From positions 1-22,477 of the IMG/VR virus record IMGVR_UViG_3300042470_001131: DNA of 22,477 nucleotides, one strand, 5' to 3'. Positions within the stretch are counted from its first letter, which is position 1. Each line of letters opens with the position of its first letter. The translations under genes were made by a program, and so were the position numbers. The notes under the pieces are model-generated. The model was not told where the DNA came from and ran no database searches. It worked only from the letters and a program-made list of their open reading frames with translations. The DNA is from a virus. Shown one piece after another: positions 9,922-22,477 of the stretch.

Positions 9922-10283
9922 CCACGCCTGATCCGCTGCTCACAGCCCGCCAGGTGGCCGACCGGCTGGCCATCAGCAAACGGGCGGTCTATGACCTGAC
10001 GTATGCTGGCCGCCTGCCCTGCTTTCGCCTGGGCGCGGGCGAGGGGGCCATGCGCTTCAGCGCCGAAGACGTCGACAACTACCTTGCATCATGTCGATCT
10101 ACTGGTCAAAGGCTGACAAGCGCTGGCGTTTCTCGTTCGACCGCTATCTTGAAGGTCGCCGACACCGACTTACTCGATTGCTTCCGAAGGGCTGGAGTCA
10201 AGCCCAGGCTGACACGTTCGACCGAGCCGAAACAGCGCGGCTCTACGCGCTTGCGGCTGGCGTCGCCCGAGCCGAGCCGCTGA
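9918..10283 (+). CDS. xis: Excisionase-like helix-turn-helix protein
   Basis: Residues 1-60 (LLTARQVADRLAISKRAVYDLTYAGRLPCFRLGAGEGAMRFSAEDVDNYLASCR) are a textbook excisionase/MerR-type winged HTH: ARQVADRLAIS, then the recognition helix, then the wing with R-F-S. By family it bends attachment-site DNA and directs the integrase to excise. The last 60 residues (after about 61) are not conserved-looking and lie in the 193-bp out-of-frame overlap with the integrase gene. The start overlaps the previous stop. Translation of xis through the integrase start may control integrase synthesis. Confidence 0.85.
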   Translation: MTTPDPLLTARQVADRLAISKRAVYDLTYAGRLPCFRLGAGEGAMRFSAEDVDNYLASCRSTGQRLTSAGVSRSTAILKVADTDLLDCFRRAGVKPRLTRSTEPKQRGSTRLRLASPEPSR

Positions 10284-11044
10284 TCGACCAGGCGGTCAAG
10301 CACTACCTGACCGACAAGACCGGCCTCAAGAGCTACAAGAGCGCGGCCGAGCACCTGGGCGCCATCGCCTGGGCCTGGCAGGGCAAGCCCATGATCGACC
10401 TGCCCGATGTGGCGCGCGAAGTGATCGCCGCGTCCGACGCCAGCCCGGCCACCCTGCGCAACCGCTTGGCGCTGCTCAAGGCGGCGTGTCGCTGGGCCTG
10501 GAAACGCCACGGCCTGACCGACACCGACCCCACCGCGCGCATGCTGCTGCCCGTGGTGCGCAATGCCCGCAAGACCTACATCACGCGCAAGGGCATGCTG
10601 CAGGCGTGCCGCGCGTGCGGCAGCTGGCAGGCGCAGATCGCCATCCGCGTGTGCTTCTACACCGGCATGCGCCTGGGCGAGCTGTGGGCCGTGCAGGTGG
10701 TCGACGGCCTGCTGGTGCTGCACGACAGCAAGAACGGCCAGCCGCGCGTCATCCCGCCGCACCCGCGCATCCGCCACCTGCTGAAGTTTCTGCCGCTGAC
10801 CGGCCACAAGCGCGGCATCCAGGCCGCCTGGACCCGCGCCCGCGACAAGGTGGGCCTGGGCGACGTGCGCTTCCATGACCTGCGCCACAGCGCGGCCAGC
10901 GAGATGGCGAACTCTGGCGTGCCGCTGTTCACCGTCGGCCAGGTGCTCGGCCACAAGAGCCCTGCCAGCACGCAGCGTTACGCACACCTGTACGCGGACA
11001 CGCTGGCCGATGCCGTGGCCAAGATCGGCAAACGCCGGGCCTGA
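10091..11044 (+). CDS. int: Tyrosine-recombinase integrase
   Basis: Three hundred seventeen residues. The short N-terminus (MSIYWSKADKRWRFSF) is an arm-binding-type fold, followed by a helical core-binding domain (KSYKSAAEHLGAIAWAWQG). The catalytic domain shows TGMRLGEL (first Arg), HDLRHSAAS (His-x-x-Arg), GHKSPASTQRYAH (His and the Tyr nucleophile). It integrates the phage at a tRNA gene by strand exchange. The 3' end points at the attachment site 33 bp downstream, the same geometry as lambda int and attP. No ribosome binding site is needed if it is coupled to xis; the ATG at 10091 lies inside xis. Confidence 0.95.
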   Translation: MSIYWSKADKRWRFSFDRYLEGRRHRLTRLLPKGWSQAQADTFDRAETARLYALAAGVARAEPLIDQAVKHYLTDKTGLKSYKSAAEHLGAIAWAWQGKPMIDLPDVAREVIAASDASPATLRNRLALLKAACRWAWKRHGLTDTDPTARMLLPVVRNARKTYITRKGMLQACRACGSWQAQIAIRVCFYTGMRLGELWAVQVVDGLLVLHDSKNGQPRVIPPHPRIRHLLKFLPLTGHKRGIQAAWTRARDKVGLGDVRFHDLRHSAASEMANSGVPLFTVGQVLGHKSPASTQRYAHLYADTLADAVAKIGKRRA

Positions 11045-11586: not shown

Positions 11587-12177
11587 TCAGTGCGGCGGGG
11601 CGGCGGCCGGCGGGCGCGGGGTGGTCATCAGCGCGTCGTAGGCGCGCTCGCAGGTGGTGCCGGCGGCGGCGCGGGCGTCTGCGAGCGCTGCCAGCTCTCG
11701 AGCTCGCGCGTCCAGCCGGCTGAGCATGTCGGCGAGCACCAGGCCGGCGTTGCCGGCTGGCGGGCTGCCGGGGGCAGCGGGGGGATGGCCGGGGGCTGTG
11801 TGGCCGGGGGCGGCAGGGGCGTTGCACTGGGCTGCGTAGGCTGCCGCCCATTGGCGCAGGCTGTCAGCAGCAGCGCGAGCGCGGTCAGCGTCAGCGCGGG
11901 CCGCGGCCTGCTGGCGCGCGGCGGCGGCGGCGATGTCGTCATGGGCACTTCTCCAGGCGGTTTCGGTGGCGCGGGCCTGCTCGCTGGCCTGGGCGGCGGC
12001 GGTGGCCAGGGTGGCGCGCTCGGTGGCCCACTGGGCGCGCTCTTCGGCCAGGGTGGCGCGCAGGCGCTGGGCGGTGCGCTCGGCGTCGCGCACGTCCATC
12101 CACAGCGTGACGCTGAGGGCGCCCAGGCCGATGGCGGCGGCGGTGGCCAGGGCGGTGATGGCGCGGTCGATCAGCAT
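11587..12177 (-). CDS. Rz: Inner-membrane spanin subunit (Rz-like)
   Basis: One hundred ninety-six residues from ATG 12177. MLIDRAITALATAAAIGLGALSVTLW is an N-terminal membrane anchor, followed by a long alanine- and arginine-rich coiled coil (about 30-120) and a proline-rich stretch near 125-145. This matches i-spanins, which reach across the periplasm and, with the outer-membrane partner, fuse the membranes in the last step of lysis. The frame is open back to 12300, but that part is proline-rich and precedes the membrane anchor. The Rz1 gene is nested inside in another frame. It follows the endolysin gene by 88 bp. Confidence 0.85.
   Translation of the reverse strand: MLIDRAITALATAAAIGLGALSVTLWMDVRDAERTAQRLRATLAEERAQWATERATLATAAAQASEQARATETAWRSAHDDIAAAAARQQAAARADADRARAAADSLRQWAAAYAAQCNAPAAPGHTAPGHPPAAPGSPPAGNAGLVLADMLSRLDARARELAALADARAAAGTTCERAYDALMTTPRPPAAAPPH
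11628..11942 (-). CDS. Rz1: Outer-membrane spanin lipoprotein nested in Rz (Rz1-like)
   Basis: One hundred four residues from ATG 11942, a different frame inside Rz. After a basic start (RASRPRPALTLTALALLLTAC) there is a lipobox LLTA-C with Cys29 as the lipidated residue. The mature part is proline-rich (TPLPPPATQPPAIPPLPPAARQP), as in known o-spanins. Fully nested Rz1 is a known arrangement (lambda). A GTG two codons upstream (11948) is an alternative start. The frame ends 41 bp before the Rz stop; the last 40 residues may be over-extended relative to typical Rz1. Confidence 0.83.
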   Translation of the reverse strand: MTTSPPPPRASRPRPALTLTALALLLTACANGRQPTQPSATPLPPPATQPPAIPPLPPAARQPATPAWCSPTCSAGWTRELESWQRSQTPAPPPAPPASAPTTR

Positions 12178-12265: not shown

Positions 12266-12739
12266 TTAGGCGATGCCGGCGCTGTAGCTGACGCGGCCAC
12301 CGGCGAAGTGCGCGGTCAGCACCTGCGCGCGGGGCGTGCCGCGGCCTGGGGGCAGGAAAGAGATGTGCACCCACTGGCCCTCGAAGATCAGCTGGTCGTA
12401 GCGGATCTGCTCGGCGTGGTTGGCGATGTGGCGGGCGATGGCGCGAGGGGAGCCGAAGCGTGGGGCGATGAAGTCGGCGGCGAGGCCCAGGGTGTGCTGG
12501 CTGAAGTCACTGCCGCCGATCGCGGCGTTCAGCGCCGGGCTGCGGTAGCCGCTGGTGATCTGCACCGGCTGCATCAGCAGATCGCGCACGCGCTGCATGG
12601 ACGGGCCGAGCACGTTGCGCAGGTTGGCCAGCACGGCGGCCGGGGGCTCGTTGTCGATGCCGCGGCGCACGGCGGTTTCTGAGCGCAGGAATTCGCTGAG
12701 GCGGAAGTCGGCGCTGACGGGTTGGTCGACGAGGGTCAT
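12266..12739 (-). CDS. M15-family peptidase endolysin
   Basis: One hundred fifty-seven residues. The core has TSGYRSPALNAAIGGSDFSQHTLGLAADF: the zinc ligands His and Asp in H-x6-D, and the third histidine in QWVHISF about 45 residues later. The N-terminal RLSEFLRSETAVRRGI is the usual M15A entry. The enzyme cleaves peptide bonds in the peptidoglycan stem and releases phage at lysis. No signal peptide is visible, so it needs the holin next to it. Its ATG overlaps the holin stop (ATGA). Confidence 0.93.
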   Translation of the reverse strand: MTLVDQPVSADFRLSEFLRSETAVRRGIDNEPPAAVLANLRNVLGPSMQRVRDLLMQPVQITSGYRSPALNAAIGGSDFSQHTLGLAADFIAPRFGSPRAIARHIANHAEQIRYDQLIFEGQWVHISFLPPGRGTPRAQVLTAHFAGGRVSYSAGIA

Positions 12740-13077
12740 GGGTGGGGCGTGGTTGCGGCTGGGGCTTCGACAGGCTCAGCCCGAGCGGTGGGTGGCTCAG
12801 CCCGAACGGGGGGTGTGGCGGGCGCGGCGTCTTCCACGCCCGGCTGGCCGACCAGGCGCGCGGCCAGGAAGAGCAGGCCCAGGGCCAGGGGCAGCCGGTG
12901 CTCGGGCACGCCGATGGCGGCCAGCAGAGCGGCCTGTTGGTCAGGTGGCAGCAGGCCGAAGCCGCAGGCCAGCGCGGCGATCTGCACGCTGAGCATGCGC
13001 CAGGCGCGGCGCCAGTTGGCGGTCAGCGTGATCGTGATGCGCAGCGGGCGGGCGCGGGGCGGGCGGGCGGCGGCCAT
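12736..13077 (-). CDS. Holin-like membrane protein
   Basis: One hundred thirteen residues from ATG 13077, which overlaps the stop of the upstream gene (TGATG). After the short basic N-terminus (MAAARPPRARPLRITITL) come two hydrophobic stretches, WRMLSVQIAALACGFGLLP and LPLALGLLFLAARLVGQP, separated by a short loop. Position next to the endolysin and topology fit a phage holin. The C-terminal tail (VRAEPPTARAEPVEAPA) is encoded by the dispersed repeat described at 12761-12809, and so was probably added by repeat invasion. Confidence 0.8.
   Translation of the reverse strand: MAAARPPRARPLRITITLTANWRRAWRMLSVQIAALACGFGLLPPDQQAALLAAIGVPEHRLPLALGLLFLAARLVGQPGVEDAAPATPPVRAEPPTARAEPVEAPAATTPHP
12761..12809. 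repeat. Dispersed repeat, full copy plus partial copy inside the holin 3' end
   Basis: A full copy of GGGGCTTCGACAGGCTCAGC followed by CCGAGCGG (12761-12788), then a partial copy of GGCTCAGCCCGAACGG (12794-12809). GGGCT and AGCCC at its ends can pair. It encodes the VRAEP/EPVEAPA tail of the holin-like protein. The same unit is found at three more places in the tail region. Confidence 0.88.
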
Positions 13078-13496: not shown

Positions 13497-13835
13497 TCAA
13501 GCGCCTGGCGGGGCCTGCGCGGCGGCGCGGGCTTCGATCTCGAGCGGGTGGTTGCGGTAGCCGTAGCGCAGCAGGCCGGCGAGGTAGCGAGCGTAGAAGC
13601 CGATGACGCCGAAGCGCTGCGCCTGCGCCCAGTGCGCCAGCTCGTGGCGCAGCAGCCGATCGGCCTCGGTGCCGGGCGCGGGGGCGGCGTGGCCGGCGCG
13701 CTGCCAGGTCATCAGGTCGGGGTGCAGCCAGATGCCGATGGGGGGTAGGCAGAGACCAGAGAAGCCGGTGAGCTCAAAAAGCCACCGCATCGGGCCGCGC
13801 AGAGCCCGCACCTTGGGCGTGTCTTGCAGCACCAT
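13497..13835 (-). CDS. HExxH zincin-like protein coupled to the DGR reverse transcriptase
   Basis: One hundred twelve residues from ATG 13835, which overlaps the reverse-transcriptase stop (TGATG). Residues about 75-88 read LLRHELAHWAQAQRFG, an HELAH zinc-metallopeptidase motif, followed near the end by NHPLEIEARA, where the glutamate could be the third ligand. The start (MVLQDTPKVRALRGPMRWL) is basic with a hydrophobic middle (LTGFSGLCLPPIGIWL). I cannot name the family with confidence; similar small phage proteins with HExxH exist near lysis genes. It could be a peptidoglycan- or capsid-related peptidase. The long open frame upstream to 14474 overlaps the reverse transcriptase and is noise. 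Confidence 0.68.
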   Translation of the reverse strand: MVLQDTPKVRALRGPMRWLFELTGFSGLCLPPIGIWLHPDLMTWQRAGHAAPAPGTEADRLLRHELAHWAQAQRFGVIGFYARYLAGLLRYGYRNHPLEIEARAAAQAPPGA

Positions 13836-14893
13836 CACCGCACCTCCCCCCGGTTGAAGGCATACCGCCCCAGCACCGCCGCAGCCAGGCCGCCGGCGGG
13901 AGCATGCGCGATGTGGGCCAGCCAGCTCTGCACCGACTGCGCCACGCGCTGCAGCGGCACCAGCCCGTCGCGGTACCAGTGCTGCAGGCGCGTCAGCGTG
14001 CGGTGGATGCGCTGGATGCTGCTGCGGCGCACGCGGCGGTGCGTGGGCCAGATGCGGTAGCCGCAGAAGTCCAGCGCATGGGCTGGCCAGCGGCCCACGG
14101 GGAAGACCTGCGTCTTGGCGTTGAGCTGCAGCCTCAGCCAGCGCTGCAGCCACTGCGCCAGGTGCGCGCGCAGGCGTTGCAGGTGGGCCTTGTCGTGGTG
14201 CAGCAGGATGAAGTCGTCCATGTAGCGCACATAGGCCCCGTGCTGCAGCCCGTGGGCGACGTGCAAGTCCAGCTCGTGCAGCATCACGTTGGCCGCAAGC
14301 TGGCTGACCAGGTTGCCGATGGGCAGGCCCACGCCGGGCGTGGTGTGCAGCGGGTTGGCGCTGTCGATGATGTGGTCCAGCAGCTGCAGCGTGCGCCGGC
14401 AGGCGATGCGCTTGCGGAACAGGGCCTTCAGCACGGCGTGGTCGATGCTGGCGAAGTAGCTGGCCACGTCGCACTTCAGCGCGTAAACCTGCCCGTGCTC
14501 GCGCTTGACGCGGCGGATCATGCGCTGCGCGGCATCTGCGGCGCGATGCGTGCCGCGGCCGGGGCGGCAGGCGTAGCTGTGGGCCACGAAGCGGGTCTCG
14601 AAGATCGGCTCGATCACGGCCACCAGGGCGTGCTGCACCACGCGGTCGCGGAAGGGCAGCGCGGCCACGTCGCGCGCCTTGGGCTCGAAGATGCGGAACT
14701 GGCGGTAGGCGCCGCTGCGGTAGGTGTTGTGCTGCAGCTCGTTCAGCAGCGCGATCAGGTTGCCCTCGAGGTCGCGCTCGAAGTGCTGCACCTCGGTGCG
14801 CGTGCGTTTGCCGCGCCGGGCGCGCAGGTAGGCGGCGTGCAGCGCATCAAAGCTGGCGATGCGGTCGAACAGGTGCTTGTGGGTCTTGGCCAC
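13835..14893 (-). CDS. Diversity-generating-retroelement reverse transcriptase
   Basis: Three hundred fifty-two residues from a GTG at 14893, preceded by GCAGGTG as a weak ribosome binding site. Motif A is ALKCDVASYF with catalytic Asp142; motif C is YMDD at 224-227. Motif 4 is GLPIGNLVSQ at 189-198, the DGR-type form with SQ in place of the SP usual in retrons and group II introns. No maturase, endonuclease or RNase H domain is present, as in other DGR enzymes. It copies TR RNA into cDNA with random bases opposite adenines. The TR lies 179 bp upstream and Avd beyond it, so all cis and trans parts are in place. Confidence 0.96.
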   Translation of the reverse strand: MAKTHKHLFDRIASFDALHAAYLRARRGKRTRTEVQHFERDLEGNLIALLNELQHNTYRSGAYRQFRIFEPKARDVAALPFRDRVVQHALVAVIEPIFETRFVAHSYACRPGRGTHRAADAAQRMIRRVKREHGQVYALKCDVASYFASIDHAVLKALFRKRIACRRTLQLLDHIIDSANPLHTTPGVGLPIGNLVSQLAANVMLHELDLHVAHGLQHGAYVRYMDDFILLHHDKAHLQRLRAHLAQWLQRWLRLQLNAKTQVFPVGRWPAHALDFCGYRIWPTHRRVRRSSIQRIHRTLTRLQHWYRDGLVPLQRVAQSVQSWLAHIAHAPAGGLAAAVLGRYAFNRGEVR

Positions 14894-15072
14894 GTCAGCA
14901 CCTGCGGGGTGTAGGCGGCAGGGCCGAGCGGTCGCGCTTGCGCGTTACTGGAGCGGCCTGCCTGGGGGGTTTTTCGGCTTCGGGCTGATGGTGGGCCCTG
15001 GCCGGGGAAGCTGCAGCCTTTTGTGTGGTGTGCTGTCTGGCGGCGCAGTACGCCACCAGCTTCTGACGGCCC
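14894..15072 (-). other. TR-RT spacer
   Basis: These 179 bp separate the template repeat from the reverse-transcriptase start. No convincing gene lies here; a minus frame crosses it but only continues the template repeat. In the Bordetella phage system the comparable spacer is part of the structured RNA needed for cDNA priming, so this stretch is probably functional RNA rather than idle sequence. Confidence 0.6.
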
Positions 15073-15192
15073 ACAAGAGCGGGGCGGGCGCCGATGTTCG
15101 TGTTCACGTTGCTGCGGGCATTGTTCAAGTTCAACGCGAACACGCCCGAGAGCGCCCCGTTGTTCCAGTTGCCGCCGCGATACGGCACGCGC
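15073..15192 (-). repeat. TR: DGR template repeat (TR)
   Basis: A 120-bp repeat matching 15660-15779 at a constant offset of 587 bp. Read on the minus strand it would encode VPYRGGNWNNGALSGVF, with AAC codons at most variable sites, and it holds 22 adenines. It begins 4 bp past the Avd stop and ends with the GC-rich block 15079-15092. All 22 adenines lie within the codons of the variable positions and the adjacent serine and threonine codons, the design of a codon-level diversity template. Confidence 0.95.
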
Positions 15193-15196
15193 GTTG

Positions 15197-15589
15197 TCAC
15201 TGCTGCTGCCCCATCGGCGCGCTGAACGTGCGCAACCAGCCGCCCACCATGCGGCCGATCTCGTCGTTCAACGTCGCCCATGTCTCGTACTTGTGCATGT
15301 CAAGGTAGCCCAGGCCCTTGGCCAGCCGCACCTGGGCGCGCAGCAGGTCGAGCTGGGCGTCCAGGTCTTGCAGAGTCGTGCGCTTGTGGTAGCGCTTGTG
15401 CGCCAGCACGATCAGGTGCAGCAGCGTCCACATGCGGTTGCGGATCTCGGCGGCCAGGACATGGCGCTCGTATTGCGGGAACTGGCGCAAACAGACGTAC
15501 CCGTACTCGATCATGGCTTCGGTCTTTTGCCTGATGAGCAGGTCCGTCACCTTGGGGGGTGACGGGGGGTTGTTGTTGCTGCGGGCCAT
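15197..15589 (-). CDS. avd: DGR accessory variability determinant (Avd)
   Basis: About 130 aa from ATG 15589; a GTG at 15613 would add eight residues. The protein is all helical, with KVTDLLIRQKTEAMIEYGY, then FPQYERHVLAAEIRNRMWTLLHLIVLAHKRYHKR, then LDLLRAQVRLAKGLGYLDMHKYE, matching the four-helix-bundle Avd family in fold pattern, length (BPP-1 Avd is 128 aa) and location. Avd binds the reverse transcriptase and TR RNA and is required for mutagenic retrohoming. It is surrounded by positive charge on its helices, consistent with nucleic-acid binding. The start has no strong Shine-Dalgarno. Confidence 0.92.
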   Translation of the reverse strand: MARSNNNPPSPPKVTDLLIRQKTEAMIEYGYVCLRQFPQYERHVLAAEIRNRMWTLLHLIVLAHKRYHKRTTLQDLDAQLDLLRAQVRLAKGLGYLDMHKYETWATLNDEIGRMVGGWLRTFSAPMGQQQ

Positions 15590-15609
15590 GGGGTGGTTGG
15601 GTGGTGTAG

Positions 15610-15629
15610 GCACCGGCTACCGCCGGTGC
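15610..15629. other. Hairpin downstream of VR
   Basis: GCACCGG (15610-15616) and CCGGTGC (15623-15629) form a perfect 7-bp stem around the loop CTACCG. It lies 24 bp past the target stop codon and 30 bp past the VR end in the coding direction. In the Bordetella phage DGR a DNA hairpin just past the VR is needed for efficient retrohoming; this is a candidate counterpart, although its distance and loop differ. Confidence 0.5.
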
Positions 15630-15652
15630 TGCAGAACACAGGTGGTCAGAAC

Positions 15653-16717
15653 TCAGGACACAAAAGCGGGGCGGGCGCCGACGTCCGAGTTCACGTAGCT
15701 GCGGGCAAAGCTCAAGTACACCGCGAACACGCCCGAGAGCGCCCCGTGGTCCCAGAGGCCGCCGCGAAACGGCACGCGCTCGCTGGTGACGTCGACCCAG
15801 AATCCATCGCCGCCGAGGCCACTGCCGGCCACCGGGTACAGGCCCAGGGCTCGCAGTTTTTCCAGCGCGGCGGTAGCTACAGGCGTCGTCCCAGGATTGC
15901 TCATGCCTTCGAAGCTGCTGCCGCTGGTGCGCACCAGGGTGTAGGCGGTGGTGCCTGACGTGGCGTACTTCACGGTGTTGGCCGAGCCTGGTGCCACGAG
16001 GTTGCCATTGCTGCCGTCGATGGCCTGCCACGAGGCAGAGCCCGACGACAGATCGGTCGCATTCAGCGCGGCGTTGTTGTTTTCGATGACCTGGATCTCG
16101 CCCGCATTGATGCGCATGCCGGCGGCCCATTCGAAGACGTTGCCTGCCAGGTCTGCGATGCCGAACGGGGTTTGGTCATGCCGCCAGCTGGCCGGGCCGC
16201 TGCCCGTGCGGGTGGTGGTGGTGGCGGTGCCGGTGGCGGCGGCCAGGCGGCCGGTGGCGGCGTCGACGGCGCGCTCGGTGGTGACGTCGGTGCTGCGCCC
16301 GTAGGCGTCGTTGCCGCGGGGCTGGGTGCCGTTCTTCCAGCACCACAGGGCCAGGGCTGCCCACTCGGCGTTGGTCATGATGTGCCAGCCGGTGCCGTTG
16401 GCTCGCGCGAGGTTGACCGAGTTGTCGAAGTTGATGCTGCGGATGGGGTCGACGCCGGGGACGGAGATCATTTCTCCGTTGCTGCTGAAGCCGATGTATT
16501 GGCCGATGAAGATTTCGGACTTGGCGACGCCGCTGACGATGAAGGCGGGGTGGTCGCCGGTGCCCAGGCTGGCGTCGATGCTCTGCAGCGTGAACTTCGG
16601 GATCACGGCCATGAAGCAGGGCTGCCCTTTGGCGGTGTAGAGGACGGTGTTTCGGCCCTGGCTGGCGGCTTCGACTTGGCGGCGCAGGGTGTCGGGGACG
16701 CTGATGGTGATGGACAT
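15653..16717 (-). CDS. DGR target: C-type-lectin/FGE-like tail receptor-binding protein
   Basis: Three hundred fifty-four residues. AGGAG 9 nt before the ATG is a good ribosome binding site. The centre (GTGWHIMTNAEWAALALWCWKNG, GNDAYG, then FGIADLAGNVFEWAAGMRIN) is the FGE-sulfatase/C-type-lectin fold used by many DGR-diversified proteins. Residues 314-353 are the variable repeat, ending five bases before the stop. Compared with the TR, residues 317, 321, 323, 324, 334, 336, 337, 341 and 344-346 differ at adenines; 333 and 352 differ at other bases. FGE catalytic cysteines are not evident, so it is a binding protein rather than an enzyme. It sits among tail-fibre genes and very likely contacts the host receptor. 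Confidence 0.93.
   Translation of the reverse strand: MSITISVPDTLRRQVEAASQGRNTVLYTAKGQPCFMAVIPKFTLQSIDASLGTGDHPAFIVSGVAKSEIFIGQYIGFSSNGEMISVPGVDPIRSINFDNSVNLARANGTGWHIMTNAEWAALALWCWKNGTQPRGNDAYGRSTDVTTERAVDAATGRLAAATGTATTTTRTGSGPASWRHDQTPFGIADLAGNVFEWAAGMRINAGEIQVIENNNAALNATDLSSGSASWQAIDGSNGNLVAPGSANTVKYATSGTTAYTLVRTSGSSFEGMSNPGTTPVATAALEKLRALGLYPVAGSGLGGDGFWVDVTSERVPFRGGLWDHGALSGVFAVYLSFARSYVNSDVGARPAFVS
15660..15779 (-). repeat. VR: DGR variable repeat (VR)
   Basis: A 120-bp block at the 3' end of the target gene that matches the template at 15073-15192 except at 15 positions; 13 of these are TR adenines (A to T seven, A to G four, A to C two). It is bounded on the coding 3' side by the GC-rich stretch 15666-15679, which is identical to the TR and is the probable initiation-of-mutagenic-homing (IMH) site. 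Confidence 0.96.
15666..15679 (-). promoter_or_regulatory. Probable IMH-type GC-rich segment of VR
   Basis: GCGGGGCGGGCGCC is identical in VR (15666-15679) and TR (15079-15092), and contains no adenine on the template sense strand, so it stays fixed while the upstream part varies. In BPP-1 such a (G/C) stretch at the VR 3' end marks where cDNA integration starts. One C-to-T difference lies two bases beyond it, at 15664. Confidence 0.72.
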
Positions 16718-16747: not shown

Positions 16748-16776
16748 GGGGCTTCGACAGGCTCAGCCCGAACGGG
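16748..16776. repeat. Dispersed repeat between the target gene and the upstream gene
   Basis: GGGGCTTCGACAGGCTCAGC plus CCGAACGGG sits in the 76-bp gap before the DGR target gene, upstream of its Shine-Dalgarno. Ends GGGCT/AGCCC can pair. It belongs to the same family as 12761-12809, 16807-16834 and 18337-18366. Confidence 0.88.
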
Positions 16777-16793: not shown

Positions 16794-17162
16794 TCAGGGT
16801 TGCGCTGGGGCTTGGACAGGCTCAGCCCGAACGGTGTCCACGGGCGGCGCCAGGCGCTCGTCGCGCGCGGTGGCGGCGGCGATGTAGGCGCTGTACAAGA
16901 TGGCGTAGACCTCGGCGTAGGTGATGCTGTCGCCCGTCAGCTCGCCGGTGGTTGGGTTGCGCAGGGGCACGGCCAGGGCGGGGTCAAAGTCTTGCGTGAT
17001 GCCTGCAGCGGGCTTGCGCAGTTCGTCGCCGGTGTCGAGCGAGACGACGCGCTCTTCCTCGAAGCGCACGGTGGGCGTGGCGTGGCGCGGGTTGTCGATG
17101 ACGATCTGGCTGCATCGCTGCCAGACTTGGCCGGTGACGGTGGATTCAGCGTAGGTGCTCAT
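16794..17162 (-). CDS. Conserved-looking tail-region protein of unknown function (122 aa)
   Basis: Starts MSTYAESTVTGQVWQRCSQIVIDNPRH and continues with FEEERVVSLDTGDELR and ALAVPLRNPTTGELTGDSITYAEVYAILYSAYIAAATARDE. The NPTTGE and Y-rich helical segment occur in small proteins beside phage tail-fibre genes, where they may be assembly factors or tail components; I cannot assign a precise role. The C-terminus (VRAEPVQAPAQP) is again encoded by a dispersed repeat copy. It lies between the tail fibre and the DGR target. Confidence 0.65.
   Translation of the reverse strand: MSTYAESTVTGQVWQRCSQIVIDNPRHATPTVRFEEERVVSLDTGDELRKPAAGITQDFDPALAVPLRNPTTGELTGDSITYAEVYAILYSAYIAAATARDERLAPPVDTVRAEPVQAPAQP
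16807..16834. repeat. Dispersed repeat inside the 3' end of the 122-aa gene
   Basis: GGGGCTTGGACAGGCTCAGC plus CCGAACGG, one base different from the other full copies. It encodes the VRAEPVQAPA tail of the 122-aa protein. It is separated by about 30 bp from the copy at 16748-16776, making a near-tandem pair. Confidence 0.87.
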
Positions 17163-17280: not shown

Positions 17281-18315
17281 TCACCAGCTGCTGATGGCGG
17301 CGCGGCGCCAGGTGTTGGTGGCGGTGCAGACGTAGATGTAGTTCGCGTCCCAGGCCACTTCGCCTTGGTTGCCCGCAGCGCCCACGCTGGCTGGGGTTTG
17401 CGCGGTGCGCACGCGAAGCTTGTTGTCGTTGACGTCCAGCAGGCCGGTGGGGGTGGCGGTGCCGATGCCCAGGCGGCGGTCGCTGGTGATGCGCAGCGCG
17501 TCTTGCCCGCCGATGGCCAGGCCGACGGCGTCGGCGCCGGGGCTGTACCAGCCGGTGTCGAGGTCTCCGTCGTAGTGCAGCGAGGGGTCGCCGACGGTGC
17601 CGCGGCGCAGGATGACATCGCCCCCGGCCACGGCGCGGGCGGCCACGCCGGCGATGTCGGCCAGGTACTGGATGTGGCGGATCAGGATCTCGCTCAGCGC
17701 GGTGGCGGCGATGTCACCGGCGCCCACCTCGCGCGCGGCGACGCCGGCCAGATCCAGCGCCTGCTGCAGCCCGGCCAGCAGCTGCGCCAGCGGTACGGCG
17801 TCGCTGCTGGGGGCGCTGAGGGCGATGTTCCACGTGGTGAAGGTGCCGCTGCCGCCGGTGCTGGTGACTTCGACCGTCATCGCGCCGGTGCCGCTGTTGT
17901 AGGCGGTGATGTAGCCCAACATCCAGTTGGCCGCGCCGGCGCTGTTGGCCACGATGACCCACTGGCCCAGCACCCAGGCCTTGCCCGTCTGCGTGTTGAA
18001 GCTCTTGGCGCCGGTGCCGACGGCCAGGCTGGTGGTGCTGGTGCCTTGCGTGCCCGGCGCGTTGACGGCGGTCAGCGCGGCGGCGCTGGCCGTAGCGGCG
18101 CTGGCAGCGGCGGCCACGCGGTGCGCGTCGGCGGCGGTGGCGTCTTGGTCGGCTTCGACCGCGTTGTTGTAGGTGGTGGCGGCCACCGCGTTGAGCTGCG
18201 TGCCGAACCCGGGCAGCGCGGCCACGAAGGCGTCGGCCCGGGCCGGGAAGTTGGCGGGGTCGGTGCGGCTGGGCGCGACGGGCAGCGCGGTGATGGTGCT
18301 GGGTGCGGTGGGCAT
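17281..18315 (-). CDS. Tail fibre protein
   Basis: Three hundred forty-four residues. The N-terminus (ALPVAPSRTDPANFPARADAFVAALPGF) is a common anchor of phage tail fibres. It is followed by a long alanine-rich coiled region (NNAVEADQDATAADAHRVAAAASAATASAAALTA), a beta-rich middle with VTSTGGSGTFTTWNI, and a C-terminal module ending NQGEVAWDANYIYVCTATNTWRRAAISSW, another frequent fibre terminus. It probably binds the cell surface or supports the DGR-diversified tip. No VR-like sequence is present here. The low-complexity repeats may reflect coiled-coil trimerisation. Confidence 0.82.
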   Translation of the reverse strand: MPTAPSTITALPVAPSRTDPANFPARADAFVAALPGFGTQLNAVAATTYNNAVEADQDATAADAHRVAAAASAATASAAALTAVNAPGTQGTSTTSLAVGTGAKSFNTQTGKAWVLGQWVIVANSAGAANWMLGYITAYNSGTGAMTVEVTSTGGSGTFTTWNIALSAPSSDAVPLAQLLAGLQQALDLAGVAAREVGAGDIAATALSEILIRHIQYLADIAGVAARAVAGGDVILRRGTVGDPSLHYDGDLDTGWYSPGADAVGLAIGGQDALRITSDRRLGIGTATPTGLLDVNDNKLRVRTAQTPASVGAAGNQGEVAWDANYIYVCTATNTWRRAAISSW

Positions 18316-18336: not shown

Positions 18337-18366
18337 GGGGCTGGGGCAGGCTCAGCCCGAACGGGG
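18337..18366. repeat. Dispersed repeat, divergent copy before the tail-fibre gene
   Basis: GGGGCTGGGGCAGGCTCAGC plus CCGAACGGG lies in the 77-bp gap between the 295-aa tail gene and the tail fibre. It keeps the GGCTCAGCCCGAACGG core and the stem ends but differs in the CTTCGACA part. Confidence 0.8.
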
Positions 18367-19306: not shown

Positions 19307-22300
19307 TCAGGGCGTGGGCGTGACGTCGACGATCTGCATCGACTCACCGTCGCGCGTGACGCGCTCCCACAGGCGCTGGACTTTGTTGGTGGCGACTGCC
19401 GTTACCCGCGCTTCGGCGCGCAGGCCCTGCACCTCAGCCCGCAGGGCGCGGATTTCAGCGGCCAGCAGCTCTTCGCGCCGCTGCCCGTTGCCGAGCATCG
19501 CGGTGGTGTCGGCGGCGGACCAGTAGCGAGCGGGGCCCGTGGCCTCGAGCTCGGGGCCGCGCTCGCCGACGATGCGAAGGCCGCCGGAGTGCAGGCCGCC
19601 TGCGGCGAACTGGGGGATGCCGCCGAGGTTGCGGATTTGTTGGCGTAGGGCTTCGAGGTCGGTCTGCGCTGCCTTGACGGATTCCAGATACCGCAGGACG
19701 GCATTGGCGGCCTCGCTGGCGGGGCCTGTCAGAGCGACAAAGCTGCTCTTCAGGTTGCCTTGCGCAACCTGGTCGGGCGTTGCCAGATTGAAGCTGAGCG
19801 GGCTGCCGACAGGGCCCAGTTGCTGCGCATTGATCAGGCGCACCGCCTCTGCAAAGTTTCCAGCATCTGCGGCGCGTTGAATTTGCTCTTCGCGCTGATA
19901 CAGGTCGCCAAAATAGCTTCCGAATCTGTCTTTTGTGGCGTTCTTGACATTCCAGAAATCCGGCTGCCCTTGATCCATCCGCACAGCAGTGAAATAGGGA
20001 TCAAACGACTTGAGGAACGTCTGAACAAATTGCTGCTCAGCTACTGCATAGGGCTGTGAATATGCCGAGGTCAGCTTGTTGAAATTGGAAAGCGCTGCTT
20101 GGCCTTCGTTTTGCCGAATTGCGATTTCCTGCTGCACGCGCTGCGCTTCGTTGGCGGCGGTGAGCGCGTTGGTCAGGCTCTGGATGCTTCCGTTCAGCGT
20201 GCTGAGCCGCGTGCTGTTGACCACTGTCTCGGTCACCAGCTTGCGTAGCTCGGCCACCTGCTTTTCCGATTCGGCCGCGGTGGCTTCGGTGTAATCCCCG
20301 ACTTGGATCGTGTTCGTGTTCAGCGCCCCATAAGCGCCGGTGTTGTTGGCGACTTGGCGCAGGGCTTCGGCCTGCTGGGCTTGCCAGCTCTGCGTGGCGG
20401 GCAGGCCCTCGAGCTCGCTGGCCACGCGGGCGCGCAGCACGCGGGCTTCGGCGCTGCTGCGGGCGGTGGCGGTGGCGGCGTCCAGGTAGGCCTGGGCGGC
20501 GCCGGTGATCTGGCCGCTGGCCTCGACATCGCCGGCCTGGGCGCGGGCCAGGGTGCTGGCGTAGATGCTGCGGGCGCTGCCGCCGGCCGCGCCGCCGCGC
20601 AGGGTGGTCACGAAGGCGGCGATGCCCTGGCCGGCCTGGGCCAGGGCCTGCAGGCGCTGGGCGCTGGCCTCGGCCGCCAGCACAAAGCGGGCGAAGGCGC
20701 GGTTGAGCGGGTCGAGCGTGGCCAGCTGGCGGGCCTGCAGCTCTGCGGTGCGGCCCTGGGCTTGCAGCAGCCGGTCTTCCAGCGTGATGCGCTCGCTGAT
20801 GACCTGTTGCGCGATGCTCAGGCGTTGGCTTTCGGCCTGGGCCAGCTCACCCTGCAGCGCGCTGATTTGCTGCTGCAGCTCTTGCGCGGCGGCCTGGGCG
20901 GTCTGGCGCAGTTGCTCGAAGCGGGCTTGCTCGTCTTGCAACGCGATGATGCGGTCATAGAGCGCCCGGTTGCTCTCGTGGATCGCTTCGCGCTCGCGGC
21001 GGCGCAGCTCTGCGGTGTCGCCCTGCAGCTGCAGCAGGCGCTCTTCGAGCTGCGCGCGCTCGGCCATGACGCGCTCGTACAGCTGGCGCAGGCTGCTGGC
21101 GGTCATGCCGGCGCCGCCGGCCAGGCGGGCCATTTCGTCGGCCACGCTGCCCAGTTCCTGGGCCAGCCGCTGCTGGATCTGCTCTTCGGTCAGACCCATG
21201 AAGCTGATCTTGATCTGCCGGTTGAAGCCGTTGACGGCATCGGCGGCTAGGCCCATGTCGCGGGCCATCTGCATGGTGCTGTCGCGCAGCGTGGTCAGGC
21301 TGGTGTCGAGGAAGGCTTCGAGCTCGGGCTGCACCCCTTGGCGCGTGGTCTTGTCGCTGCGAAACAGGCCGCCTTTGTAGAAGTTGTACTGGCTGCCATC
21401 GAAGCCGCTGCCGGTGAGGAAGCCCTCGATGCCGGTGTCCTTGAGCTTGCGGCCGAACAGGGGCTGCCACAGCGCGGCCAGCGCGCCTGCGGCGGCCAGC
21501 CAGGGCAGCGCGGTGGCAAACGCTGCCCCGGCGCCCATGGCGCCGCCAGCGCCCGCGGTGGTGGGCCCGGCCAGGCCGGCGGCCAGCGATGCGCCCTGCA
21601 TGCCGCTGCCGAACAGGCCCAGGCTGGTGCTGCCGATGGCGTTGCCGAAGCCGCCGATCAACCCGCCCAGGCTGCTGGCGGCTGAGCCGCTGACGGCGCC
21701 GACCAGGCTGCTGATGCTGTTGACCCCGCTGAGGATGGACAAGCCCCCGGCCGCGCCGCCCGTGCTCGCGGCAGCCGTGCCGGCCAAGCCCAGGCTGCCC
21801 ACGATGACGCGGGCCACGGGGTCGACGATGGCCTTGATGATGGGCTGCAGCACCAGGGTGCTGAAGTAGCGCTTCAGCGCATCGCCTGCGCTCTTGCCGC
21901 CTGACATCAGCGCGTCGGCCAGCGATTGGCCCACCTGGTCGACGGTGCGTTCCCACTGCGCGGCCGCGTCCTTGGCCGCCTGGTCGTTGGCCTGGCGCAC
22001 GCGCTGGTCGCCCAGGGCGCCGAGCAGCTTTTCGCGGGCCTGGATCTCGCGCTCGATGGCGTTGTAGCCCTCGGTGCCCGCGCGGTACATGGCCTGCTGC
22101 TCGCGCAGGCGGGCGATGGTGACCAGCTCGATGGCTTCGGCCAGGCTGATGGCCTGGGCGGCGGCCAGGGCGCTGGCCTTGGCGTCGAGCTCGAGGTCTG
22201 CGGTGCGGGCCTGGATGGACTCGAGGTTGCGGCGGGCGGCTTCGGTCTGGTCGTCGAGGTACTTCTGGACGGCGGCGGCGTCCTGGATCTGGGCCTGGGT

Positions 22301-22477
22301 GATCTGGTCTTGCAGGGTCAGCAGGTAGTCGCGGTAGGCCTCGCGCTGGCGCAGGTACTCGCGGGTCGCTTCTTCTTCGGCCTCGTACTCGCGCACCAGG
22401 GCGGCCAGGGCGATGTCGGCCTGCAGCTGCAGCTCGCGCTGGTGGGCGGCTTCGGCGGCCAGCTCGGCGGCGTCGTA
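19307..22477 (-). CDS. Tail tape-measure protein, 5' end cut by the window
   Basis: The frame stays open to the last base, so the N-terminus is missing; at least 1056 residues are visible. The right part (N-terminal side) is a long coiled coil (EYEAEEEATREYLRQREAYRDYLLTLQDQITQAQ). A hydrophobic glycine/alanine-rich membrane-like part follows (LSILSGVNSISSLVGAVSGS and GASLAAGLAGPTTAGAGG). The rest is further coiled coil, ending with FAAGGLHSGGLRIVGERGPELEA and a basic C-terminus, all typical of siphophage tape measures, which set tail length and help DNA entry. The low-complexity GC-rich middle gives a long frame on the opposite strand. Confidence 0.92.
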   Translation of the reverse strand, partial: YDAAELAAEAAHQRELQLQADIALAALVREYEAEEEATREYLRQREAYRDYLLTLQDQITQAQIQDAAAVQKYLDDQTEAARRNLESIQARTADLELDAKASALAAAQAISLAEAIELVTIARLREQQAMYRAGTEGYNAIEREIQAREKLLGALGDQRVRQANDQAAKDAAAQWERTVDQVGQSLADALMSGGKSAGDALKRYFSTLVLQPIIKAIVDPVARVIVGSLGLAGTAAASTGGAAGGLSILSGVNSISSLVGAVSGSAASSLGGLIGGFGNAIGSTSLGLFGSGMQGASLAAGLAGPTTAGAGGAMGAGAAFATALPWLAAAGALAALWQPLFGRKLKDTGIEGFLTGSGFDGSQYNFYKGGLFRSDKTTRQGVQPELEAFLDTSLTTLRDSTMQMARDMGLAADAVNGFNRQIKISFMGLTEEQIQQRLAQELGSVADEMARLAGGAGMTASSLRQLYERVMAERAQLEERLLQLQGDTAELRRREREAIHESNRALYDRIIALQDEQARFEQLRQTAQAAAQELQQQISALQGELAQAESQRLSIAQQVISERITLEDRLLQAQGRTAELQARQLATLDPLNRAFARFVLAAEASAQRLQALAQAGQGIAAFVTTLRGGAAGGSARSIYASTLARAQAGDVEASGQITGAAQAYLDAATATARSSAEARVLRARVASELEGLPATQSWQAQQAEALRQVANNTGAYGALNTNTIQVGDYTEATAAESEKQVAELRKLVTETVVNSTRLSTLNGSIQSLTNALTAANEAQRVQQEIAIRQNEGQAALSNFNKLTSAYSQPYAVAEQQFVQTFLKSFDPYFTAVRMDQGQPDFWNVKNATKDRFGSYFGDLYQREEQIQRAADAGNFAEAVRLINAQQLGPVGSPLSFNLATPDQVAQGNLKSSFVALTGPASEAANAVLRYLESVKAAQTDLEALRQQIRNLGGIPQFAAGGLHSGGLRIVGERGPELEATGPARYWSAADTTAMLGNGQRREELLAAEIRALRAEVQGLRAEARVTAVATNKVQRLWERVTRDGESMQIVDVTPTP

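Follow-up and report, generated by a model that had tools for sequence, protein, structure and literature searches.

A temperate tailed phage with a very probably complete diversity-generating retroelement of BPP-1 architecture and a TaqVP-like target

Does this stretch of viral DNA carry a complete diversity-generating retroelement (DGR), has that element been at work in recent time, and which protein does it vary? The window, that is, the whole stretch that was analysed, is the entire IMG/VR record IMGVR_UViG_3300042470_001131 (22,477 nt). At 22.5 kb it is probably a fragment of a phage genome. Its source is a temperate tailed phage, and comparison with relatives makes the Burkholderiales the probable, candidate host order. 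DGR reverse transcriptases (RTs) have been catalogued from IMG metagenomes by the tens of thousands (PMC8144416). We give a probability of about 95% to the reading that the window holds a complete DGR of BPP-1 architecture, which rewrites the VR of a TaqVP-like target in this phage. This is an established system from which the cassette makes no departure, and the concepts of the field are unchanged by it. The locus does provide an unusually clean natural test of a DGR, in which near-identical contigs carry mirrored non-adenine TR changes and differ at most of the adenine sites. It also adds a new TaqVP-like target, with a variable set larger than that of TaqVP, in an environmental temperate phage.

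The whole cassette is on the minus strand. In the order of transcription it consists of a target gene with the VR at its 3' end, avd, the TR and the RT gene. A sequence-only reading had described it as a complete DGR in BPP-1-like order, and this was upheld for each component by sequence, family model or fold. The TR (15072–15192, with 22 adenines) aligns without gaps to the VR (15659–15779), which makes up the last 41 or so codons of the target. The offset between them is 587 bp, as first reported, and the match is 121 nt long rather than the 120 bp originally given. There are 15 differences between the repeats. Thirteen of the 22 TR adenines are changed (A>T at 7, A>G at 4 and A>C at 2; hypergeometric p = 4.5e-10) and the others are a single T>G and a single C>T, so that the alignment reproduces the earlier counts. 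Eleven residues are altered, again the number first proposed, and all of these through adenines. Two further residue changes arise away from adenines, L>V through the T>G and L>F through the C>T, which is inside the IMH. The T>G, at 15721 (T in the TR, G in the VR), is outside the IMH. Being a non-adenine change that is missing from the sister contig described below, it is best seen as a rare error or a point mutation. When the TR is read in the VR frame it has 13 adenine-bearing codons, mostly AAC/AAT and nine of them AAY; no stop codon can be reached from it by adenine change, and approximately 1e13 proteins are possible. An ORF crossing the TR (14895–15281) is taken as spurious. No second VR, second TR or remote target was found in the 22,477-bp record.

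The 3' end of the VR contains the IMH (15659–15680, minus strand), a GC-rich run followed by TTTTGTG. Its TR copy, IMH*, is CTCTTGTG at 15072–15093 on the same strand. There are no adenine changes in this region and there is one C/T difference from the TR copy, which recurs in those relatives whose repeat extends into the IMH. A GC-rich VR end that is free of adenine change, together with this recurrent C/T, is the pattern expected of an IMH and IMH*. Past the VR, 29 nt beyond its end, is a DNA hairpin or cruciform (15610–15629, minus strand), GCACCGGC-GGTA-GCCGGTGC, with an 8-bp stem and a GRNA-type loop. It fits the rule published for phage DGR targets, which is a 7–10 bp GC-rich stem and a 4-nt GRNA loop located 4–34 bp past the VR (PMC3240598). 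In many related loci a hairpin with a 4-nt GRNA loop is kept while the stems vary, the loop being mostly GATA or GGTA. We accept the hairpin because it matches the published rule and because the GRNA loop recurs in relatives, and not for its folding z-score (-1.6), which is weak taken alone. The spacer between the TR and the RT gene (14894–15071, minus strand) is the most conserved stretch in the comparison with the sister contig, with 1 difference in 178 nt, and by analogy with BPP-1 it probably forms the 3' portion of the DGR RNA. An Rfam search gave no match, and the folding energy of the TR-spacer RNA was not below that of shuffled sequences (z = -0.98).

The avd gene (15197–15589, minus strand) has matches to Pfam bAvd (6.6e-32), PHROG 3206 and NCBIfam DivGenRetAVD (1.4e-33). 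Its ORF is open from 15613 (15197–15613), and the ATG at 15589 is the most likely start. The last of these family models scores Avd at 115 bits against a cut-off of 80. The RT (13835–14893, minus strand; 352 aa from a GTG start) matches Pfam RVT_1 (2.3e-18) and PHROG 1423 (8.6e-128). Both of the motifs that had been recognized in it are present, IGNLVSQ as part of GLPIGNLVSQ and the catalytic YMDD (14213–14224), where the RTs of group II introns have QGGxxSP and YADD. The best match in the PDB is the BPP-1 DGR RT (8ub7, 4.5e-57); group II intron RTs come far behind it, at 1.7e-20. In a maximum-likelihood tree made up of DGR RTs and three group II intron RTs, the RT groups with that of a relative, L003, and with other DGR RTs, and the DGR-type RTs are split from the group II intron RTs with support of 100/100. 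Both the PDB ranking and the tree place the RT with those of DGRs and not with those of group II introns, in agreement with the first reading.

Other identities for the RT were considered and rejected. PADLOC/DRT and retron assignments proved to be generic RT matches only, and the NCBIfam group II, Drt and retron models all match it below their cut-offs. The RT of a Vibrio mediterranei plasmid was tried as a non-DGR outgroup. It has IGSVTSQ/YMDD and falls among the DGR RTs, and this DGR-type motif and position make it invalid for that use. This IGSVTSQ RT (L170:1360-2664; NZ_CP033579.1) has a long branch and is found near an Ig-like-domain protein.

The target gene (15653–16717, minus strand) encodes 354 aa and matches PHROG 2889 (1.1e-123). 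TaqVP (PDB 5vf4), which has been crystallised, is the protein varied by the DGR of a prophage in Thermus aquaticus (PMC6328139), and the target matches it with a phmmer value of 4e-89. An AlphaFold model of the target (pLDDT 82.9, pTM 0.85) matches 5vf4 both in Foldseek (4.1e-37) and in VIA-align (Z 44.7, 2.8 A over 331 residues, 48% identity). The next structural matches, PvdO, TvpA, FGE and Mtd, have Z of 10–13. Confidence in the model is low for residues 1–5, 134–177 and 322–328, the last of these segments being inside the VR. As modelled, the target is a TaqVP-like protein with the FGE-subtype C-type-lectin fold, and the match to TaqVP would set the VR in the C-terminal ligand-binding site. 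The lectin-like tip suggested by the sequence-only reading is borne out by this, as the confident model matches TaqVP and the VR corresponds to the C-terminal 41 or so residues.

The cassette shares with the BPP-1 DGR (mtd-avd-TR-brt) the gene order, Avd, a GC-rich IMH, an IGxxxSQ RT and an 8-bp hairpin with a 4-nt GRNA loop. The TR/VR offset is similar too, 556 in BPP-1-type phage vB_BbrP_003 and 587 here, and the RT of the BPP-1-type phage has about 39% identity to the one in the window. The target, however, is TaqVP-like and not Mtd-like (Z 44.7 against about 11), and it is without the beta-prism/beta-sandwich trimerisation domains of Mtd (PMC6328139). With the Thermus aquaticus DGR it has in common target homology over the whole length, a VR in the C-terminal 40 or so residues, AAY codons, and avd followed by the TR. 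There are 13 variable codons here and 9 in TaqVP, which accounts for some 1e13 variants as against the 3e9 reported for TaqVP (PMC6328139). Homologous targets, with 36–50% identity over 99%, are present in Vibrio phages VHML and VP58.5 and in Pseudomonas phage Bise, and in all three a DGR RT adjoins the target. VP58.5 and Bise also have TR/VR pairs with adenine-only differences. All three are phages different from the source of the window. In Bise the target gene follows a contractile-tail baseplate module, and the RT, which carries YVDD, forms a long branch in the tree. A full-length homologue of the target with 44% identity is also found in Klebsiella phage KPN U2874 (L168:5001-6095; MF415411.1). 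No DGR RT is present in its 59-kb genome and there is no TR/VR pair within 5 kb, so the target scaffold also serves in a fixed form, without variation.

What role does the varied protein have? Its gene follows directly on those for tape-measure, tail and fibre-like proteins, with the lysis genes coming next, all on the same strand. Upstream, in the tail operon, are a tape-measure-like protein (19307–22396, minus strand; PHROG 25966, 9.4e-5), with a short match to an Acidovorax phage tape measure protein, and a tail-fibre-like protein (17281–18315, minus strand; PHROG tail fibre families, 2.6e-9 to 1.9e-5). An uncharacterised but conserved phage protein also belongs to this upstream group. A small ORF upstream of the target (16794–17162, minus strand; 122 aa) has no family match in Pfam or PHROG and is possibly a tail-fibre accessory. 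Downstream, the DGR is followed by genes for a small HELAHW protein, a holin-like product, an M15 endolysin (12266–12739, minus strand; Pfam Peptidase_M15_3, 1.9e-17) and an Rz-like spanin. The remaining genes of the record include, in keeping with a temperate phage, a tyrosine integrase (10091–11044, plus strand; Pfam Phage_integrase, 3.6e-19), along with excisionase-like, repressor-like and primase/helicase genes.

Two further features of this neighbourhood were observed. The HELAHW protein, named for its metallopeptidase-like motif, is encoded by the small ORF directly after the RT gene and on the same strand (13497–13838), and has only a weak match, to PHROG 37302, a phage family that is itself uncharacterised. 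Four copies of a 21-bp repeat, TTCGGGCTGAGCCTGTCGAAG, with 0–3 mismatches, are found between genes (12765–12785, 16752–16772, 16811–16831 and 18341–18361), when none is expected by chance. Two of these copies are just upstream of the target gene.

Since the gene follows those of the tail, and homologous DGR targets occur in VHML, VP58.5 and Bise, we infer a receptor role for the target. It is most likely, judging from its sequence and context, a tail-tip or fibre-associated adhesin, and its gene position and homology to DGR variable proteins point to receptor binding. Could the DGR be functional and yet act on a lysogenic-conversion protein, or another non-tail surface protein, instead of a receptor-binding protein? 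The DGR targets of cells are often proteins other than those of tails. The virion location of the target here is drawn from gene order and homology, and TaqVP, its closest solved relative, belongs to a prophage and lacks an established ligand. Against this, the gene follows tape-measure, tail and fibre-like genes and precedes lysis genes on one strand, and the position is the same in Bise, after the baseplate and tail genes, and in the BPP-1-type phage. The targets of several clades of viral DGRs are also mostly tail proteins (PMC8144416). We consider such a non-receptor target unlikely. That the target belongs to the tail operon but is varied for another role, such as display by the lysogen, we hold to be very unlikely; the DGR would in that case be diversifying something other than host range.

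Has the varied receptor-binding protein proposed here been rewritten recently, or are the TR/VR differences the fossil of a DGR that has since decayed? A search of IMG/VR for the exact TR returned only L163 (3300044825_001656, a separate metagenome record; L004 is the same contig) and L003 (3300016665_000452), one of them a near-identical relative. Both have the same cassette, hairpin and 587 offset as the window, with RT identities of about 98% for L163 and 77% for L003, and in both the VR has been diversified anew at adenines. Between the window and L163, the TR differs at 4 of 121 sites. The VR differs at 16 of its 23 template-adenine sites, against 4 of the 98 others. There are 18 differences in 808 sites of the RT part (2.2%), 15 in 393 of avd, 1 in 178 of the spacer (0.6%) and 110 in the 944 sites of the target gene outside the VR. 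The TR substitutions at 15180 (T/C) and 15141 (G/C), neither of which involves adenine, are both mirrored in the VR of each contig. These mirrored substitutions, and the contrast of 110/944 with 4/98, indicate that the VR tracks its own TR and not the surrounding gene; the mirroring also implies that the VR was overwritten from the TR after the two lineages split. The sequence comparison is strong evidence for adenine-mutagenic retrohoming since that split. It is also the pattern that the sequence-only reading had led one to look for in relatives, variation of the VR confined to adenines beside a stable TR.

A decayed DGR has on its side the one non-adenine VR difference outside the IMH. However, the RT and Avd are open and their motifs intact, the nucleotide divergence from L163 is low in the RT and the spacer, and TR changes made after the split are already in the VR, which has been diversified again at its adenines. 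Decay is thus highly improbable and, by comparison of the sequences, the cassette is recently active.

A panel of 38 related loci behaves in the same way: TR adenines account for 449 of 482 TR/VR differences, and 15,970 of 16,469 (97%) non-adenine pairwise TR differences are matched by the locus's own VR, although the panel includes near-duplicates, so that the direction and magnitude of the effect are what count and the numbers do not stand for independent events. The target alignment omits loci L014, L084 and L087, in which the homologue was called in the wrong frame. An ordinary diverged duplication, with its adenine bias due to chance or positive selection, is refuted by L163 and this panel and keeps a negligible probability. 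Nothing was found in its favour, and against it are the p of 4.5e-10 that the window gives by itself, the recurrence of the pattern across the 38 loci and the concerted non-adenine change of TR and VR. Separately, the target gene outside its VR (15780–16717) has 11.7% divergence from L163, compared with 0.6–3.8% in avd, the TR, the spacer and the RT. This excess suggests that the region upstream of the VR has recombined or has evolved faster.

The anatomy, the adenine-confined change, the copying from TR to VR in natural lineages and the fold are supported directly. For the mechanism, the RNA and the chemistry of priming and integration are presumed to follow BPP-1, which has been studied by experiment. 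On that model the avd-TR-RT region would be transcribed, and the RT and Avd would copy the TR RNA into cDNA with misincorporation opposite adenines. With the GC-rich IMH and the hairpin that follows it as guides, the cDNA would then take the place of the VR. Up to 13 codons in the ligand-binding surface of the target could be rewritten in this way without stops, and particles with new host-binding surfaces would arise, the receptor step being suggested by context.

A more unusual arrangement than the cassette in the window, a tandem DGR with a remote VR, is found in related prophages. Relatives in Ideonella, Pigmentiphaga and Pseudothauera have two tandem cassettes in the order avd1-TR1-RT1-avd2-TR2-RT2 (L165:6361-9787, on Ideonella dechloratans plasmid NZ_CP088082.1; L084, L086, L087, L013 and L014), with RT1 and RT2 from different DGR groups. 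There is no VR near TR2. The matching VR is about 62–65 kb away in the opposite orientation, within an FGE/lectin-like hypothetical gene near early-region genes. On the Ideonella plasmid it is at 629,231–629,341, about 64.6 kb off and in the opposite orientation, and in the 78.9-kb IMG/VR record G006 it is at 11,980–12,081, about 62 kb off. Adenines account for 10–13 of the 14–16 differences between TR2 and the remote VR in three cellular genomes, and for 10 of 26 in G006.
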